37,882 bases of DNA from Spirochaetia bacterium (GTDB lineage: Bacteria; Spirochaetota; Spirochaetia; DAHUYW01). The stretch spans positions 1 through 37,882 of the forward strand of contig JASHNV010000029.1 of NCBI GenBank assembly GCA_030041455.1, in the 5' to 3' direction. Below, in pieces: positions 8,514 to 28,649 of the stretch; the first letter of the stretch is position 1, and each line of letters starts with the position of its first letter. Under the pieces are notes generated by a model. It saw nothing but the letters and a program-made list of their open reading frames with translations. It did not search any database and was not told the origin of the DNA. The translations under genes were made by a program, and so were the position numbers.

Positions 8514-8853
8514 GAGACACTCCCAAGGCAAAAGGTACCGCGCCTCATGAATATCGTATAGCGTTTCATGCACGAACCGGACGGGCGCTCCTGATCTCGC
8601 GAAGGCAGGGCTCAATCCGCGCCCTGACGTGTAGGACCCTCCCATCGAGCGGCCATGCTTTGGGCCTGATGCGGCTCTCTCATGACCCAAAGCCGGCCCG
8701 AGTTCCGGGCCGAAAAAGTCCATTGCGGTCGCGAGAAACGCCGCGAAGAGGCGGACCATGTCGTGCCGCTCGGCGCGGTCGGGAGGGGAGCGGCTCGGCC
8801 CACCGCGGGTTCAGGCCGTCCGCAGGCGCGCGGCGGCTCGATCATGGCGCCGA
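8514..8853. other. Intergenic region with a 7-bp stem-loop
   Basis: No gene recognised. A perfect hairpin CGGCCCG-AGTTC-CGGGCCG lies at 8694-8712, followed on the plus strand by AAAAAG. It lacks a T tract on either strand's downstream side, so a rho-independent terminator is not shown. It stands between the decayed toxin-antitoxin module and the citrate synthase gene. Confidence 0.35.
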
Positions 8854-23182: not shown

Positions 23183-24761
23183 TTAGTGGCCGTTCTGCTG
23201 GGGTAGGATCGGGGCCTCAGGAGAGGACGGCCTTGTCCGATCGTCCACCAGCTGGCTCTGCAAGTCGATCGTGCGGATCTCCGCGGCTCCCAGTTGGTCC
23301 TTGAGCAGCGATATGAGACTGATCTGCTGATCGATTCTACTCCGGAGGCTCGCAATGCTTGAGCCCGAAGCGATCGAGACGCCGCGCGCGTCGAAGAGCT
23401 GCTCCTGAAGATCATCCGAGCGAGCCTGCGATGCGCCGAGCTGGCCTTGCAGTTGCGAGATTAGGCGGTTCTGCTGATCGATTTGGTTCTGAAGGTCGCT
23501 CAGACTGGCTTCCGAGTTGCCCGTTTTCCGACGCTCGTCGGCGAGCTGGTTCTGGAGGTCAGCCGACCGACCCTGTGCGGCCGTGAGCTGATCCTTTAGC
23601 TGCGCGACGAGCTGCGCCTGCTGGTTGGAAAGGTTCGCCACCGATGCATCCGCCTTTCGATTCTCGTCTGCAAGCTGTTTATCGAGGTCCGCGAGCCTCG
23701 ACTGAGCGCTGCTGAGCCGATCCTGCAGCTGCGAGATGACTTGATTCTCCTGGTCGGCCTCCCCGGCTTTTTTCGCCGAGTCCTCCTGAAGCCCCCGAAT
23801 GAGGGAGTCGCGCTGGGCCAGCAGTTTCTTGGTGGACTCGGCGTCGTCGCCTTGCAGGACGGCAAACGCCTTGTTGATTTCGGGCAACTGCGTGAGCGCC
23901 TGCGTATAGAGACTCTTCGCCGTGTCAGCGTCCCCTTTCGATCGTGCGTCGTCGGCCTTGGCGACGAGCGCCTGGCTCGCGACCAGCTCGTTCGCCGCCA
24001 AGGCAACCGCCGGGTCGACCGTCTGTCCTTCCGAGGACGGCACGGTCCGCGACTTGATGAGGTCCGACAGCGTGCCCAAAAGCGCGAGATCGATGGTTCG
24101 CCGTTTTTCGAACTCCGGTATCGCCTCAACCTTTGGGCTTACGAGCAGGGCGCGGAGAGAGTCCATGTCTGTCTCCGCCTGCGTGAACTTTGTTTGGCGG
24201 ATGTCCTGCAGAATCGTATTATACGAGCCGACAACCTGATCGGAAACGAGTTGCTCGGTCTGAGCCCGGGCCGAGAGAGCCTGAAGCTGGGACTGCGCCA
24301 GGTTGACCGCGGCCTGCTCCTGGGTGGCCTGCTGCTGAGCCTGAGAGGCTTGGGCCTGAAGCTGTTGTCGCTCAGACTCGAATTGAGACCGCAGCTGAAC
24401 CTCGCGCGTCTGAGCTTCGCTGATCAACTGCTGGCGCTGCTCGTCAGCCTGCGCGAGGAGCTGTCGCGACTGCTGCTTTTGCTTGTCGATTTCGGTCTCC
24501 TTTGCCGCGAGCTCGACTTCGCTCGCCTGTCGAAAATTGGAAAGCTGGCGAGTATACTGGATACCTATCTGCTCCTGGTAGGCCTTGAGCCTCCCGTCGA
24601 CTTCAGCCTGCGAAATGCCCAGCTTCTCAAGGTTCGTCCTTTCTACGGCGAGCTGCGCCTGCATCTGGGTCTGAAGCTGAGTCTCCTTCGCGGCGATTGT
24701 CGAGTCCATGTTCTGGCGAAGGTTGGCTTCGTCCTGATCGAGCTTCGTAAGGGCGTCCTGG
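23183..24761 (-). pseudogene. Membrane-anchored coiled-coil protein, C-terminal fragment (split by transposon)
   Basis: 526 codons on the minus strand, cut off at its 5' end by the transposon at 24762. It joins in frame to the fragment at 28255-28649; together they make 657 residues. This part is almost wholly Gln/Ala/Leu/Asp-rich heptads: an early coiled coil (ETQLQTQMQAQLAVERTNLE, with ELAAKETEIDKQKQQSRQLL), a less repetitive middle (FEKRRTIDLALLGTLSDLIK, then SKGDADTAKSLYTQALTQLP, TPR-like), and three or four repeats of the type DLQNQLADERR-K/N-LSDLQNQIDQQN-LISQLQGQLGASQ. It ends APILPQQNGH. The nearest internal ATG is 24709, with no evident ribosome binding site, so it is probably not translated. 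I do not know its function; long periplasmic coiled coils often have structural roles. Confidence 0.85.
24757..24761. repeat. Target-site duplication, left copy (CCTGG)
   Basis: CCTGG directly outside the left inverted end, matched by CCTGG at 28250-28254 outside the right end. Removing one copy together with the element restores the coiled-coil reading frame exactly. Confidence 0.92.
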
Positions 24762-24777
24762 TGTAGAGACCCGCGAT
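24762..24777 (+). repeat. Left terminal inverted repeat of the transposon
   Basis: TGTAGAGACCCGCGAT matches the inward-read right end at 14 of 16 positions (positions 7 and 8 differ). TCGAGGA occurs 30 bases in from this end and again about 44 bases in from the other end in the same inward orientation; it might be part of a second transposase site, but a 7-mer is weak evidence. Confidence 0.9.
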
Positions 24778-24936
24778 GGGGTCTAAGGATTCGAGGAGAA
24801 ATGCCGAATTGATTTAGTTAGACATTGAGGGAAAGGAGAAGGGAAACCGGGACTTTCTTGGTGTGACGACCATCCCGATCTCCCCTCAGCAACCATTATT
24901 CTACTCGACATTTCCGCGCATGACTATAGCGTTTCT

Positions 24937-25524
24937 GTGCTCGTGGCCGAGTGGCCGAACCTTCTGAAGCAGATGAAGTGTCCTCGGTGCCGGACGGAGG
25001 GGCGGTTTGGGTTTCACGGGACCTACGAGAAGTATCACTTCTCCCGACGAATCAGCATCATCAGGGTTCGGTGTCTGCGCTGTAGAGTCACCCACGCACT
25101 GATTCCGTCGTTCTCGCTGCCGGGCACCTCGATCGGTACCCCGGAGGCTGAGGCCTATCTGATTGCTCGGGCCGAGGGAGCGTCGCGAACCAAGGCGGGA
25201 AGAATCCTGCTGGAGCAGGGAATGAGCGAGTCCTCGGCGAAGCGGCTTGATCGGATGCTGGACGTTGCCGTCCGCCGCGGCAAGGCGTTGCTTGCCGGGA
25301 ACGGCGATCCGCAGGTATCGGGTTTGGCCTGGATCGGGTCGGTGTGCGGCCCCACGAAGCGGCCGCTGTACGCCATCAATCGCTTCGGTCTGGATCGGCG
25401 GGTCAACGGATTGTGCTTCTGCCGCGCTGCCATCCTGCAGTTTCGTCGATTTCCCGTCAGCGGCAAGACTCCACCTACCTTGTATTCTGTCGTAGCCGAA
25501 CGCGGACTTGTAGACTCCCGGTAG
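24937..25524 (+). CDS. Zinc-ribbon transposon protein (DUF6431-like)
   Basis: 195 residues from GTG 24937. No ribosome binding site is clear and the frame stays open upstream, reading TIILLDISAHDYSVS just before it, so the real start may be a rare codon near 24892-24898. Two CxxC pairs, MKCPRCRTEGRFGFHG and RVRCLRCRVTHALI, form a treble-clef or zinc-ribbon module near the N-terminus. A helical stretch follows, AEAYLIARAEGASRTKAGRI and MSESSAKRLDRMLDVAVRRG, that looks like a helix-turn-helix. I recall such proteins as DUF6431 next to transposase genes; function unknown. It sits 29 bases before the transposase gene, so co-expression is likely. By position and zinc motif it could serve target choice or end binding, analogous to TniQ, but this is inference. 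Confidence 0.65.
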   Translation: MLVAEWPNLLKQMKCPRCRTEGRFGFHGTYEKYHFSRRISIIRVRCLRCRVTHALIPSFSLPGTSIGTPEAEAYLIARAEGASRTKAGRILLEQGMSESSAKRLDRMLDVAVRRGKALLAGNGDPQVSGLAWIGSVCGPTKRPLYAINRFGLDRRVNGLCFCRAAILQFRRFPVSGKTPPTLYSVVAERGLVDSR

Positions 25525-25553
25525 TCACGATTGATCACCGGGAGGATCGGGCT

Positions 25554-26969
25554 TTGAACGACAAGGAACGCGAACGACAGATCGAGGAGGTGACGGAGTT
25601 TCGCTTCCAGATCGTCGCCGAGCTCGCCAACCCCTACCTGAGCTCCGCAGAGCGAAAGAGGCTGATAGGTCAGAAGGCGAGTATCGAATACGATGTGCCC
25701 GGCAGCGGCCGTAGACGCTTCAGCGAAGGGTGTATCCTGAAGTGGCTTGCGCGCTTCCGTATCCATGGCAAAGACGGCCTGCGGCCTCGCAGCCGCAGAG
25801 ACTCAGGCAGCTGCCGGTCGCTCAGCCGCGAAGAGGCGGCATTGCTGATCAATCACCTGGAGGCCGAGCCGTCGCTCACCGCCATCGCCATGCTTCGCAG
25901 GCTTCAGGCCGCCGATCTCATCCGCAGCACCCCCTCAAGCTCATCGCTGTCGCGATTGATTCGATCGGCGGGGATGGACCGAACGCGTCGGCTGCGCATG
26001 CAGAGCCAGAACAAAAACCTGAAGTTCGACTTTTTCACTCCCCTTGAATGCGTCCAGGCCGATGCCATGTACAGCGTGAAGATCCCCGATGAGAAGGGCA
26101 AGCTCCGCTTTGCGATTCTCATCGCCTTCATCGATGACGCAACGCGTCGGGTGCTCTTCGCGGGGTTCTCGTTCTCCGAAAGCTCTCTGACCTTCGAGGC
26201 GGGCATCCGACACATTCTCGCTGCGCACGGGAGAATCGGCAGACTCTACGTCGACAACGGCTCGACGTTCGTCGGCACCCAGACTCAGCGCATCCTTGCC
26301 ACCCTCGGTATTATCCTCGTCCACTCACGACCCGGCCGTCCACAGGGTCGCGGAAAAGTGGAGCGATTTTTTCGTACGACGCGCGAGCAATTCTTCTCAC
26401 CCCTTGAGGTGAAAACGCTCCGCGGAATCGAAGACCTCGATCGGCGCTTTCATTCGTGGCTTGAAAGCGAGTACCACCGCACCCCCCACCGAGGCCTGGA
26501 GAAGCAGACACCCCTTGAAGCCTGGGTGGAGAAAGCGCATCTGATCATCCCCCTGGACCCGGCCGTCAACCTCGAGGAGGCATTCCTCCACGAGGCAAGC
26601 CGCAGAGTGCACAAGGACTCGACGATCACCCTGGAGGGGTCGCTCTTCGAGGTACCCTCGATCGTGGCAGGCGAGCGGATTACCGTCCGCTACAACCCTC
26701 ATGTCAGTCCCGGCCGCCGAAGACTCCAGATCCTGAAGGACGGCCAGTTCATCGGCGAAGCACGCCTGGTGGACTCTTATGCCAACACCAGGGTCCGGCG
26801 CAACGACATGAATAAGCAGATCGAGATCGCCGACAGCGAGCCGGCCGAAGAACCTTCCCCGCCGCGGCGGCCGATCGACAATTCCCTTTCCGCTTCGCGC
26901 TTTGACGTGGTCCCACCGGCCGACGATAGCGAAGATCAGGATCACGCGCACCAGGAGACCGATCGATGA
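25554..26969 (+). CDS. DDE transposase of the Mu/TniA/IstA type
   Basis: 471 residues from TTG 25554, chosen for GGGAGGA 8-9 bases upstream; the frame is open further upstream but overlaps the zinc-ribbon gene. Cuts and joins transposon ends to target DNA. Residues 1-150 hold helix-turn-helix end-binding domains (FSEGCILKWLARFRIHGKDG, then SREEAALLINHLEAEPSLTA). The RNase H-fold catalytic core has Asp170 (CVQADAMYSV), Asp234 (LYVDNGSTFVG) and Glu270 (GRPQGRGKVERFFRT), giving DD35E spacing. It continues FHSWLESEYHRTPHRGLEKQ and a beta-barrel with RITVRYNPHVSPGRRRLQIL, as in TniA, MuA and IstA. The C-terminus is Pro/acidic (EPSPPRRPIDNS ... DDSEDQDHAHQ), plausibly the ATPase-binding tail. Stop overlaps the ATPase start (ATGA). 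Confidence 0.95.
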   Translation: MNDKERERQIEEVTEFRFQIVAELANPYLSSAERKRLIGQKASIEYDVPGSGRRRFSEGCILKWLARFRIHGKDGLRPRSRRDSGSCRSLSREEAALLINHLEAEPSLTAIAMLRRLQAADLIRSTPSSSSLSRLIRSAGMDRTRRLRMQSQNKNLKFDFFTPLECVQADAMYSVKIPDEKGKLRFAILIAFIDDATRRVLFAGFSFSESSLTFEAGIRHILAAHGRIGRLYVDNGSTFVGTQTQRILATLGIILVHSRPGRPQGRGKVERFFRTTREQFFSPLEVKTLRGIEDLDRRFHSWLESEYHRTPHRGLEKQTPLEAWVEKAHLIIPLDPAVNLEEAFLHEASRRVHKDSTITLEGSLFEVPSIVAGERITVRYNPHVSPGRRRLQILKDGQFIGEARLVDSYANTRVRRNDMNKQIEIADSEPAEEPSPPRRPIDNSLSASRFDVVPPADDSEDQDHAHQETDR

Positions 26970-27769
26970 ACAGCCGCGAATACTTAAGCTTCTACGGGTT
27001 GTCCTCGCTGCCGTTCACCAAGGAGATCCCCACCGCAGAGCTCCTGACGCTGCCGTCGGTAGAACGGCACCTCGCCGCGGCGCGCCTGCTCGTGGAGACC
27101 CGAGGCATCGGGGTCATTACCGGGAAGGCCGGGACGGGCAAGAGCTGTCTCCTCCGGCTGCTGGCCGAAAGCCTCCCGCCCGGGCTCTACAAGCCGTTGT
27201 ACCTCTGCCACAGTTCCGTCGGGCTCGTGGAGTTCTACACCCACCTCGTCAGCCTCTTCGGCATCGAGCCGTCCTACCGTCGGGCAACCATGTTCCGCGA
27301 TCTGCAGCACCACATTCTCTCGATGAACGCAAGTTCCCACGTTCACCCGGTCTTGCTCGTCGACGAGAGCCAGCTGCTGAACAACGAAATCCTCGCCGAG
27401 ATACGGCTCCTGACCAACTACCAGTTCGACTCGATGAACGCGCTCACCGTCGTGCTGTGCGGCGACGAGACGCTCACCCGAAAGTTCGGTCTCTCGATGC
27501 TCGAGTCCCTCGCCAACTCCATTACCGTGATGATCTCACTGGAAGCGCTGGCGAAGGAGGAATCTTTCGCCTATATCGAAACCCGCCTGGCAGCCTGTGG
27601 GTTGAAACACCCGGTGTTCACCAAGAACGCTCTGGAGCTCGTTCACCAGGCCTCAGGCGGCATCCTGAGAACCATCGGCACCATCGCCAACGCGGCGTTG
27701 GTGAAGGCCTACCTGATCAAAAGTCCCCAGGTGGAAGCCGAGCACGTTCAGGCCGTCATCGGCCGCTGA
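26966..27769 (+). CDS. AAA+ transposition ATPase (TniB/ExeA/IstB-like)
   Basis: 267 residues. Expected to assemble on target DNA, select the target and activate the transposase, as TnsC, TniB, MuB and IstB do. Begins YLSFYGLSSLPFTKEIPTAE, the ExeA-like entry. Walker A GKAGTGKS at 53-60, Walker B PVLLVDESQ at 128-136 and a sensor-1 region ALTVVLCGDETLTRK; then LEALAKEESFAYIETRLAAC, and the lid domain GGILRTIGTIANAALVKAYL. The ExeA-like N-terminus makes it closer to TniB/ExeA than to IstB. Translationally coupled to the transposase by ATGA; a small accessory gene follows 8 bases later. Confidence 0.93.
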   Translation: MNSREYLSFYGLSSLPFTKEIPTAELLTLPSVERHLAAARLLVETRGIGVITGKAGTGKSCLLRLLAESLPPGLYKPLYLCHSSVGLVEFYTHLVSLFGIEPSYRRATMFRDLQHHILSMNASSHVHPVLLVDESQLLNNEILAEIRLLTNYQFDSMNALTVVLCGDETLTRKFGLSMLESLANSITVMISLEALAKEESFAYIETRLAACGLKHPVFTKNALELVHQASGGILRTIGTIANAALVKAYLIKSPQVEAEHVQAVIGR

Positions 27770-27777
27770 GCACCGTC

Positions 27778-28098
27778 ATGCATCAGTTCCACGATGAGAC
27801 AGAATCGTTGCTCCACGAGGTGTATGCGATCGGTCCGTTCACCGCATGGCTCGCCGAACGACTGACCAGACACGCCGTTCGCCAGACCTGCTGGCAATGC
27901 CGGCACCTCCTCTGCTACGCGCGAACCTTCTCACCCCCACGATTGGAAGCGGCCGTCGCTTGCATGATGTCCTACGGCGTCTACGACATCGCTTCTCTTC
28001 GCTTCCTCCTCGAACAGGACCCGCTTCCCGTTCCACGCCGCACTGACTCAGACCTCGACGGTCAGCTGAGACTCCCCCTGGAAGACGACATCTTCTGA
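27778..28098 (+). CDS. Small transposon protein resembling the C-terminal part of IstA
   Basis: 106 residues, starting 8 bases after the ATPase stop. The middle, HAVRQTCWQCRHLLCYARTF and SPPRLEAAVACMMSYGVYDI, then ASLRFLLEQ, resembles the end of IS21 IstA proteins, where a 'R..QGYRSCLGILRLA..YG.ERLEAACRRAL..GA.SYRSV.SIL' pattern is seen. Here the segment stands as a separate protein rather than the tail of the transposase. A CxxC pair plus a third Cys (TCWQCRHLLC) could bind zinc; I do not recall such a motif in IstA. The C-terminus is DSDLDGQLRLPLEDDIF. Probably a transposase or ATPase accessory factor; that is inference from position and the weak similarity. Confidence 0.6.
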   Translation: MHQFHDETESLLHEVYAIGPFTAWLAERLTRHAVRQTCWQCRHLLCYARTFSPPRLEAAVACMMSYGVYDIASLRFLLEQDPLPVPRRTDSDLDGQLRLPLEDDIF

Positions 28099-28249
28099 CC
28101 TTCAGCCACAAGGTTCCCGCGTTGAGATCGTGTTTCCGGAAATCGGCAATCGATTGAACATCCCCACAATGCGGGAGAAAGGAAAAAAACGCGTCAAAAT
28201 CCTCGACTACAGTGCGGTATTCCCGGTCACAGGATCGCGGGAATCTACA
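28099..28249 (-). repeat. Right end region and terminal inverted repeat of the transposon
   Basis: The terminal repeat itself is 28234-28249 (ATCGCGGGAATCTACA on the plus strand). The preceding 135 bases carry no gene and should hold additional transposase-binding sites; TCCTCGA at 28200-28206 mirrors TCGAGGA near the left end. A short A-rich run (GAAAGGAAAAAAACG) lies at about 28176-28192. Confidence 0.8.
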
Positions 28250-28649
28250 CCTGGGTCTGCTTGATCTGTTGATCCTTGGCCGCAAGCTCGGCCTGAGTCT
28301 GTTTTCGAACCTCGTCGAGAAGCTTGCCTTCGGCCGAGAAGAAGGTGCCGGCCTGACTTGAAATTTCGTTTTGCTGTTTGTTGAATACGATTTTTGCGAC
28401 GAAAAAACCCGCAACAACGGCCACGACTGCTGCCCCGTTGATGAGGAGGGGAAAGACTATTCCGTTTCTCTTCGGTTTAAGGTCGAACTGGTCGGGAGTG
28501 ACGGCTATCTTGTTTTCGGCCACTACACGGTCGATGGTGTCGAGAATCTCCTTCCGGTCTTCCTTCGAGACCTTTTGACTGTCCAGGAGAAGCAAATCTT
28601 CGCTTTCGTCGCGCTTTGGCGCAGGAGCGTTGGACTCTGGTCTGATCAT
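28245..28649 (-). pseudogene. Membrane-anchored coiled-coil protein, N-terminal fragment (split by transposon)
   Basis: ATG 28649 has GGGAG 7-10 bases upstream. 134 codons are read before a TAG lying in the transposon end; the native gene stops at the CCTGG at 28250-28254. Residues 1-62 are charged and cytosolic (KEDRKEILDTIDRVVAENKI, then VTPDQFDLKPKRN). A single transmembrane helix spans about 63-89 (FPLLINGAAVVAVVAGFFVA). The outside part begins the coiled coil (EVRKQTQAELAAKDQQIKQT). Joined at Gln133 to DALTKLDQDEANLRQ in the other fragment it gives one 657-residue chain. I recall spirochaete proteins with this 'TP+.F.L.PKRNG..FPL.+N' entry to the membrane; memory only. The truncated, membrane-anchored product could still be made. 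Confidence 0.88.

Follow-up and report, generated by a model that had tools for sequence, protein, structure and literature searches.

A zinc-ribbon protein, an IS481-like transposase and a MuB/TnsC-like ATPase as the proposed core of a widespread, unclassified transposon family with a layout like that of Tn6049

Introduction

Transposons of the Mu/Tn7/Tn5053/IS21 superfamily combine a DDE transposase with an AAA+ ATPase, TG..CA ends and a 5-bp target duplication. Known systems that can be compared with the element described here are I) IS21 (istAB); II) Tn5053/Tn402 (tniABQR); III) Mu and Tn7 (MuAB and TnsBC, respectively); and IV) Tn6049 (tnp and gspA) of Cupriavidus metallidurans CH34. Tn6049 is present in 12 copies in strain CH34, where its ATPase was called gspA (PMC2864759), and published work was unable to place its transposition module in any category (PMC6210171). 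For the copy on pMOL28, ends of TGTGC..GCACA and a 5-bp duplication, TATGG, were measured in this study; for another copy, a 4-bp repeat was reported (PMC4739549). Elements with a DUF6431 protein, an IS481-like transposase and an AAA ATPase in the same order are carried by Geobacillus plasmid pGS18 and were also seen as Sporosarcina and Metabacillus plasmid elements, and no description of these plasmid elements as a named transposon was found. TnRErm46 and TnMARS1, which emerged from the literature search, are other element types.

This study analysed a stretch of 37,882 nucleotides from a Spirochaetia bacterium (hereafter, the window), in which a four-gene transposon had been predicted from the sequence alone. 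The element is an intact copy of a widespread, unclassified family with a layout like that of Tn6049.

Results

The transposon is complete, spans positions 24,762-28,249 (3488 bp) and contains four genes on the same strand. Its ends, TGTAGANNCCCGCGAT, occur together with a 5-bp duplication, CCTGG, of which the left copy (24,757-24,761) is identical to the right copy (28,250-28,254). The terminal inverted repeats are imperfect, with TGTAGAGACCCGCGAT on the left (24,762-24,777, + strand; inverted repeat I5) and TGTAGATTCCCGCGAT on the right (28,234-28,249, - strand), giving TGTAGA..TCTACA. There are three occurrences of TGTAGANNCCCG in the 37.9-kb window against 0.02 expected, and the ends score 16/22 when ends and 5-bp duplications are scored as pairs. 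The insertion interrupts a minus-strand host gene for a coiled-coil, Gln-rich protein, leaving a downstream part at 23,183-24,756 and an upstream part, including the ATG at 28,649, at 28,255-28,649. Removal of the element and one CCTGG yields a single open frame (658 aa within the joined stretch). Contig C43 of the same genome carries a paralogue without interruption, with which the rejoined gene is colinear (72% over 1321 nt), and the rejoined gene also aligns to a relative in a genus mate. The C43 paralogue shows the empty site of the insertion, and the predicted boundaries, TG..CA ends and 5-bp duplication are confirmed. Besides this single full copy, the genome has one relic-like right end, on contig C9. 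The latter (8803-8848; L002/L014) is a right-end-like sequence of a related element, 80% identical over 46 nt, near a contig edge and with no genes in view.

Gene 2 (25,554-26,969, + strand, TTG start) encodes a transposase of 471 aa with an HTH, an rve core and a Mu-transpos_C-like barrel, and its catalytic residues D170, D234 and E270 define it as DD35E. It matches rve with an E-value of 1.2e-10 and Mu-transpos_C with 0.0024, the latter being below that model's cut-off. Its best PDB match by sequence is IstA of IS5376 (E 2.6e-6), and TnsB was matched as well. Among curated transposase models, IS481 comes nearest (E 7.8e-48), with 163 bits against a family cut-off of 224; the IS21 IstA model gave 40 bits against a cut-off of 160. 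Gene 3 (26,966-27,769, + strand), which overlaps gene 2 by ATGA, encodes an AAA+ ATPase of 267 aa that is AAA_22/ExeA-like and has MuB (3.5e-11) and TnsC (9e-8) as its best PDB relatives by profile; phage records contained no relative of it. The original prediction of a DD35E transposase and an ExeA-like ATPase is confirmed.

With a DDE transposase, an AAA+ ATPase, TG..CA ends and a 5-bp duplication, the element belongs in the Mu/Tn7/Tn5053/IS21 superfamily, as had been proposed, and its gene set is indeed that of neither IS21 nor Tn5053, since it has an extra gene 1 and contains no TniQ or resolvase. IS21 resembles it in having an ATPase helper and a transposase, IstA, that leads the PDB matches of gene 2, but consists of two genes only and has another ATPase subtype, whereas the family of the window element adds gene 1 and often gene 4. 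Tn5053/Tn402 has the same combination of transposase, ATPase, TG..CA ends and 5-bp duplication, and its transposase is homologous to gene 2 (profile 1.1e-7); the difference lies in TniQ and the resolvase, and gene 1 is not TniQ-like. Mu and Tn7, to whose MuB and TnsC the ATPase is closest by profile, also make a 5-bp duplication, but the window element has no TnsA, TnsD, TnsE or phage genes.

Tn6049 has the same order and spacing of four genes as the window element, and also a length of 3.5 kb, TG..CA ends and a 5-bp duplication. Its transposase, which is annotated as IS481, is homologous to gene 2 (hhalign 1.3e-39), and its ATPase is homologous to gene 3 (hhalign 1.5e-80 with a profile that already included the Tn6049 ATPase as a row; 30% identity and 2e-24 when compared directly by tblastn). 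Its first gene encodes a different zinc-ribbon protein without detectable similarity by profile to gene 1 (hhalign probability 0.4%, HMM E 6). Its gene 4 shows homology (43%, 7e-7) to that of L029, a DUF6431-type element, within a fourth-gene group that joins L009 with L029 and L090, and L029 with L052, L059 and L045; because this homology group spans both, Tn6049 is tied to the DUF6431-type family. The elements of pGS18, Sporosarcina and Metabacillus share about 30% (transposase) and 31-36% (ATPase) identity with the window element, and their fourth gene is unrelated or absent. The earlier notion of a poorly described family thus stands in that the type is uncategorised in the literature, but must be qualified in that a named element, Tn6049, has an equal layout.

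Related loci were found in Spirochaetota, Pseudomonadota, Desulfobacterota, Acidobacteriota, Bacillota, Bacteroidota, Chloroflexi, Myxococcota and other phyla, the analysis working with draft genomes. Ends matching at least 14/22 together with a 5-bp duplication were present at 11 loci, compared with 0 of 460 shuffles. Desulfofustis contains at least 24 full-length copies with analysable flanks, 12 of which have exact 5-bp duplications; NaphS2 contains about nine, three of them with exact duplications; and in a further genome (G300) two copies of a 2912-bp element are 99.97% identical, one having a CCCCT duplication. From these copies it is clear that relatives have moved recently as whole units between one pair of ends. 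About half of the copies in Desulfofustis sp. PB-SRB1 (L216-L240) are without matching duplications, and some have one common flank, which suggests recombination between copies or assembly duplication. Neither the 12 sites with exact duplications in one genome nor 13 sites across the family revealed a strong common motif; a target motif is weak at most, with about 0.6 bit per position or less.

Gene 1 (24,895-25,524, + strand) was assigned by profile, family comparison and AlphaFold2 as a DUF6431-like zinc ribbon followed by a helical domain. The two CxxC pairs noted originally are seen, together with the DUF6431 pattern CPxC..HGxY..R..C..C..LP; the similarity of gene 1 itself to Pfam DUF6431 is weak (E 0.003, below cut-off), and 36 of 64 gene-1 relatives match DUF6431 outright. 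The AlphaFold2 model (mean pLDDT 83) has a zinc ribbon and then a helical bundle, with a confident N-terminal strand; it gave no global structural match, and NrdR and other zinc-ribbon proteins were among its weak matches. The conserved N-terminus, IILLDIS, starts at a non-canonical ATT, the first canonical start being GTG at 24,937. In the spirochaete clade (window 24,895-24,937; L018, 4344; L019, 271; L020, 776; L165, 389), the gene 1 N-terminus ..ILLDI..DYS is conserved, and some members have no ATG, GTG or TTG there or immediately ahead of it. Starts in this clade may be ATT, ATA, GTA or GTT, which would hold expression low.

Of 82 related loci that contained a transposase, an ATPase and at least 600 bp of upstream sequence, 74 have a gene-1 homologue immediately ahead of the transposase. 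Loci without one include Tn6049, whose zinc-ribbon protein is a different one; L021, in which tblastn detects a broken gene 1; and the related L107, L108 and L111. In L068, a complete 3492-bp element with the duplication CCTGC, gene 1 and the transposase form one fused protein. The 74 loci and the fusion support gene 1 as a core component. Genes and ends co-occur across homologous loci (11 with matched ends). Of active homologues without genes 1 and 4, which would have counted against the original prediction, only those without gene 4 were seen: this gene is missing from the recently moved 2912-bp relative (L166/L167), which has genes 1-3, and no demonstrably mobile element of the core family could be identified as clearly without an equivalent of gene 1. 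In two actinobacterial members, on Kitasatospora and Mycobacterium plasmids (L279, L280), gene 1 is annotated as an HTH protein and still matches the gene-1 profile; the Kitasatospora element has a small gene between transposase and ATPase.

Between the left end and gene 1 there is an inverted repeat with a CCCG core (24,835-24,886, + strand), the arms of which differ between elements while pairing is kept (L005, L018, L020, L022, L165); several spirochaete relatives show related pairing. Its folding z-score is 0.07 in the window (not significant), -3.8 in L165 and -5.6 in L005. It is possible that this repeat acts as a leader hairpin against read-through transcription, or as paired transposase sites. 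Subterminal repeats of transposase sites were not significant in the window element, and significant only in L079. An internal end-like sequence, TGTAGACTCCCG (25,509-25,520, + strand), covers the final codons of gene 1 shortly before the transposase, and is supported by the three occurrences against 0.02 expected; it is present at the equivalent place in L165 (about 1006), and its core, TAGACTC, is there in L018, L020 and L022. The core coincides with the conserved last gene 1 residues [VIL]DSx in five elements. As a candidate transposase-binding operator, TGTAGACTCCCG may limit the expression of genes 2-4. In the delta proteobacterium NaphS2, the distance from left end to gene 1 in one element (L026, 3841-4325) is about 480 bp and exceeds that of the other members examined, and a stretch resembling a SEC-C/TPR gene on the opposite strand is possible cargo.

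Gene 4 (27,778-28,098, + strand) encodes a helical accessory protein of 106 aa, whose sequence is not conserved in the family and whose codon-position GC resembles that of the other element genes; a single-sequence structure model (pLDDT 60) was too poor for a structure search. The protein ends in QLRLPLEDDIF (28,063-28,095, + strand), i.e., a beta-clamp-binding-like QLxLPL motif (QLRLPL, residues 96-101) and then an acidic tail ending in Phe. Hda QLSLPL is a tight binder of the beta clamp (PMC12309361), transposases with a C-terminal QLxLF bind the clamp (PMC4549789), and the C-terminal tail of SSB, DDDIPF, binds PriA, DnaG and chi (PMC5872125); compared with the latter, gene 4 of the window ends in EDDIF and has no Pro. 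Acidic-x-PF C-termini were found in 13 of 53 fourth genes, against 5 of 3626 other small ORFs and 9 of 796 long ORFs, and QL[SD]LF in 3 of 53 against 0.01 by shuffle. In some fourth genes, QLDLF, QLHLF or QLxLPL stands just ahead of the acidic-x-PF end, the former agreeing with the consensus of clamp-binding peptides and the latter with that of the SSB tail. A strict clamp motif is present in only 5 of the 53 proteins. The idea of tail motifs arose from inspecting these 53 sequences themselves, and the one independent, small set consists of six fourth genes from loci fetched after the idea had been written down. Four or five of these six have tail motifs (L287, FDEMPF; L291, DDQIPF; L292, DPPF; L286, QRDLF..DELPTF; L288, QLTLPL), although they are not fully independent of one another because a helical region is common to them. 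Among plasmid elements that had been collected to test the clamp motif, earlier than the SSB idea, that of P. phytofirmans ends in IDEPF, and the fourth genes of Metabacillus and Kitasatospora have neither a clamp nor an SSB-tail motif.

Discussion

The reading preferred here, to which we assign a probability of roughly 0.6, is that of a heteromeric DDE transposon family with a core of zinc-ribbon protein, IS481-like DD35E transposase and MuB/TnsC-like ATPase, and with an optional fourth gene for docking. The transposase would bind the TGT..CA ends and join their 3' ends to the target, while the ATPase, by analogy with MuB, TnsC and IstB, would assemble on target DNA and activate the transposase. 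The zinc-ribbon protein would be a partner of the transposase that most likely helps to bind the ends or to regulate the complex and does not choose a fixed site. The docking peptide of gene 4 (QLxLPL/QLxLF and/or acidic-x-PF) would link the complex to replication or replication-restart proteins, and coupling of transposition to host replication is the preferred reading of gene 4. The 2912-bp relative carries no fourth gene in either of its two near-identical copies, so gene 4 is dispensable; since fourth genes are optional, docking would aid transposition and not be required for it. More tentatively, the small adaptor might imitate both an SSB tail and a clamp peptide and pass the strand-transfer product to the clamp, PriA or primase, with the obligate zinc-ribbon partner of the transposase replacing TniQ-type factors.

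A reading of the fourth genes as miscellaneous cargo or remnants is somewhat unlikely; under it, the tail motifs would merely have come along with one or two inherited families, or would serve for docking to the ATPase of the element itself. In its favour, fourth genes are diverse and sometimes absent, and many have neither motif, but acidic-x-PF tails recur in several fourth-gene groups without detectable mutual similarity in all-against-all BLAST and again in the held-out loci, and PF-ended tails were never found on the transposases, ATPases or gene-1 proteins of the family.

It is unlikely that gene 1 selects targets as TniQ or TnsD do and gives the family its own site choice. Its zinc ribbon and helical domain, and its nearly constant place beside a TnsB/TnsC-like pair, fit such a role, and TniQ too has a zinc finger between helical domains (PMC10293859). 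Against it, gene 1 gave an hhalign probability of 0.1% with Tn402 TniQ and no TniQ Pfam match, TniQ is absent from its top 50 structural matches, and gene 1 lies upstream of the transposase and is once fused to it, whereas tniQ comes after tniB. With neither a profile nor a fold match, the TniQ reading was dropped. A TnsD-like fixed-site selector is likewise improbable because the insertion sites have no strong common motif, and with insertions scattered in this way the original suggestion of dedicated target-choice machinery finds no support.

Still less probable is the original label of gene 4 as a detached IstA tail, by which it would be the separated C-terminus of an IS21-type IstA and, in a fuller form of the idea, make contact with the ATPase. 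Two of its best weak database matches are IstA C-termini (H62, L118), and with an IstA-tail profile it scores above all of 2000 and 5000 shuffles; several unrelated real ORFs score higher with that profile, however, and for this reason the label was not adopted. Moreover, no other family member has a resembling fourth gene, and the IS21 structure places the IstB contact on the beta-barrel, the far C-terminus not being resolved (PMC11208146).

An ordinary IS481-family insertion sequence with chance neighbours can be dismissed almost entirely, since IS481 elements are typically single-gene and, although IS481 is the closest curated model, the transposase falls below its family cut-off, while here a set of three or four genes, conserved across phyla, travels together between one pair of ends, as the multi-copy whole units with duplications show.

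The preferred reading, a three-gene core with an optional docking gene, places an uncategorised, widespread type among the transposase/ATPase transposons and defines its core, ends and duplication; the type comprises Tn6049 as well as relatives that carry DUF6431. DUF6431 thereby gains a function that can be tested. With three genes and no fixed site, the family offers a simple system in which to study a TnsC/MuB-type ATPase at work in the absence of TniQ. Should the docking peptides be real, they would provide a removable part for studying how replicative or semi-replicative transposons recruit host replication.
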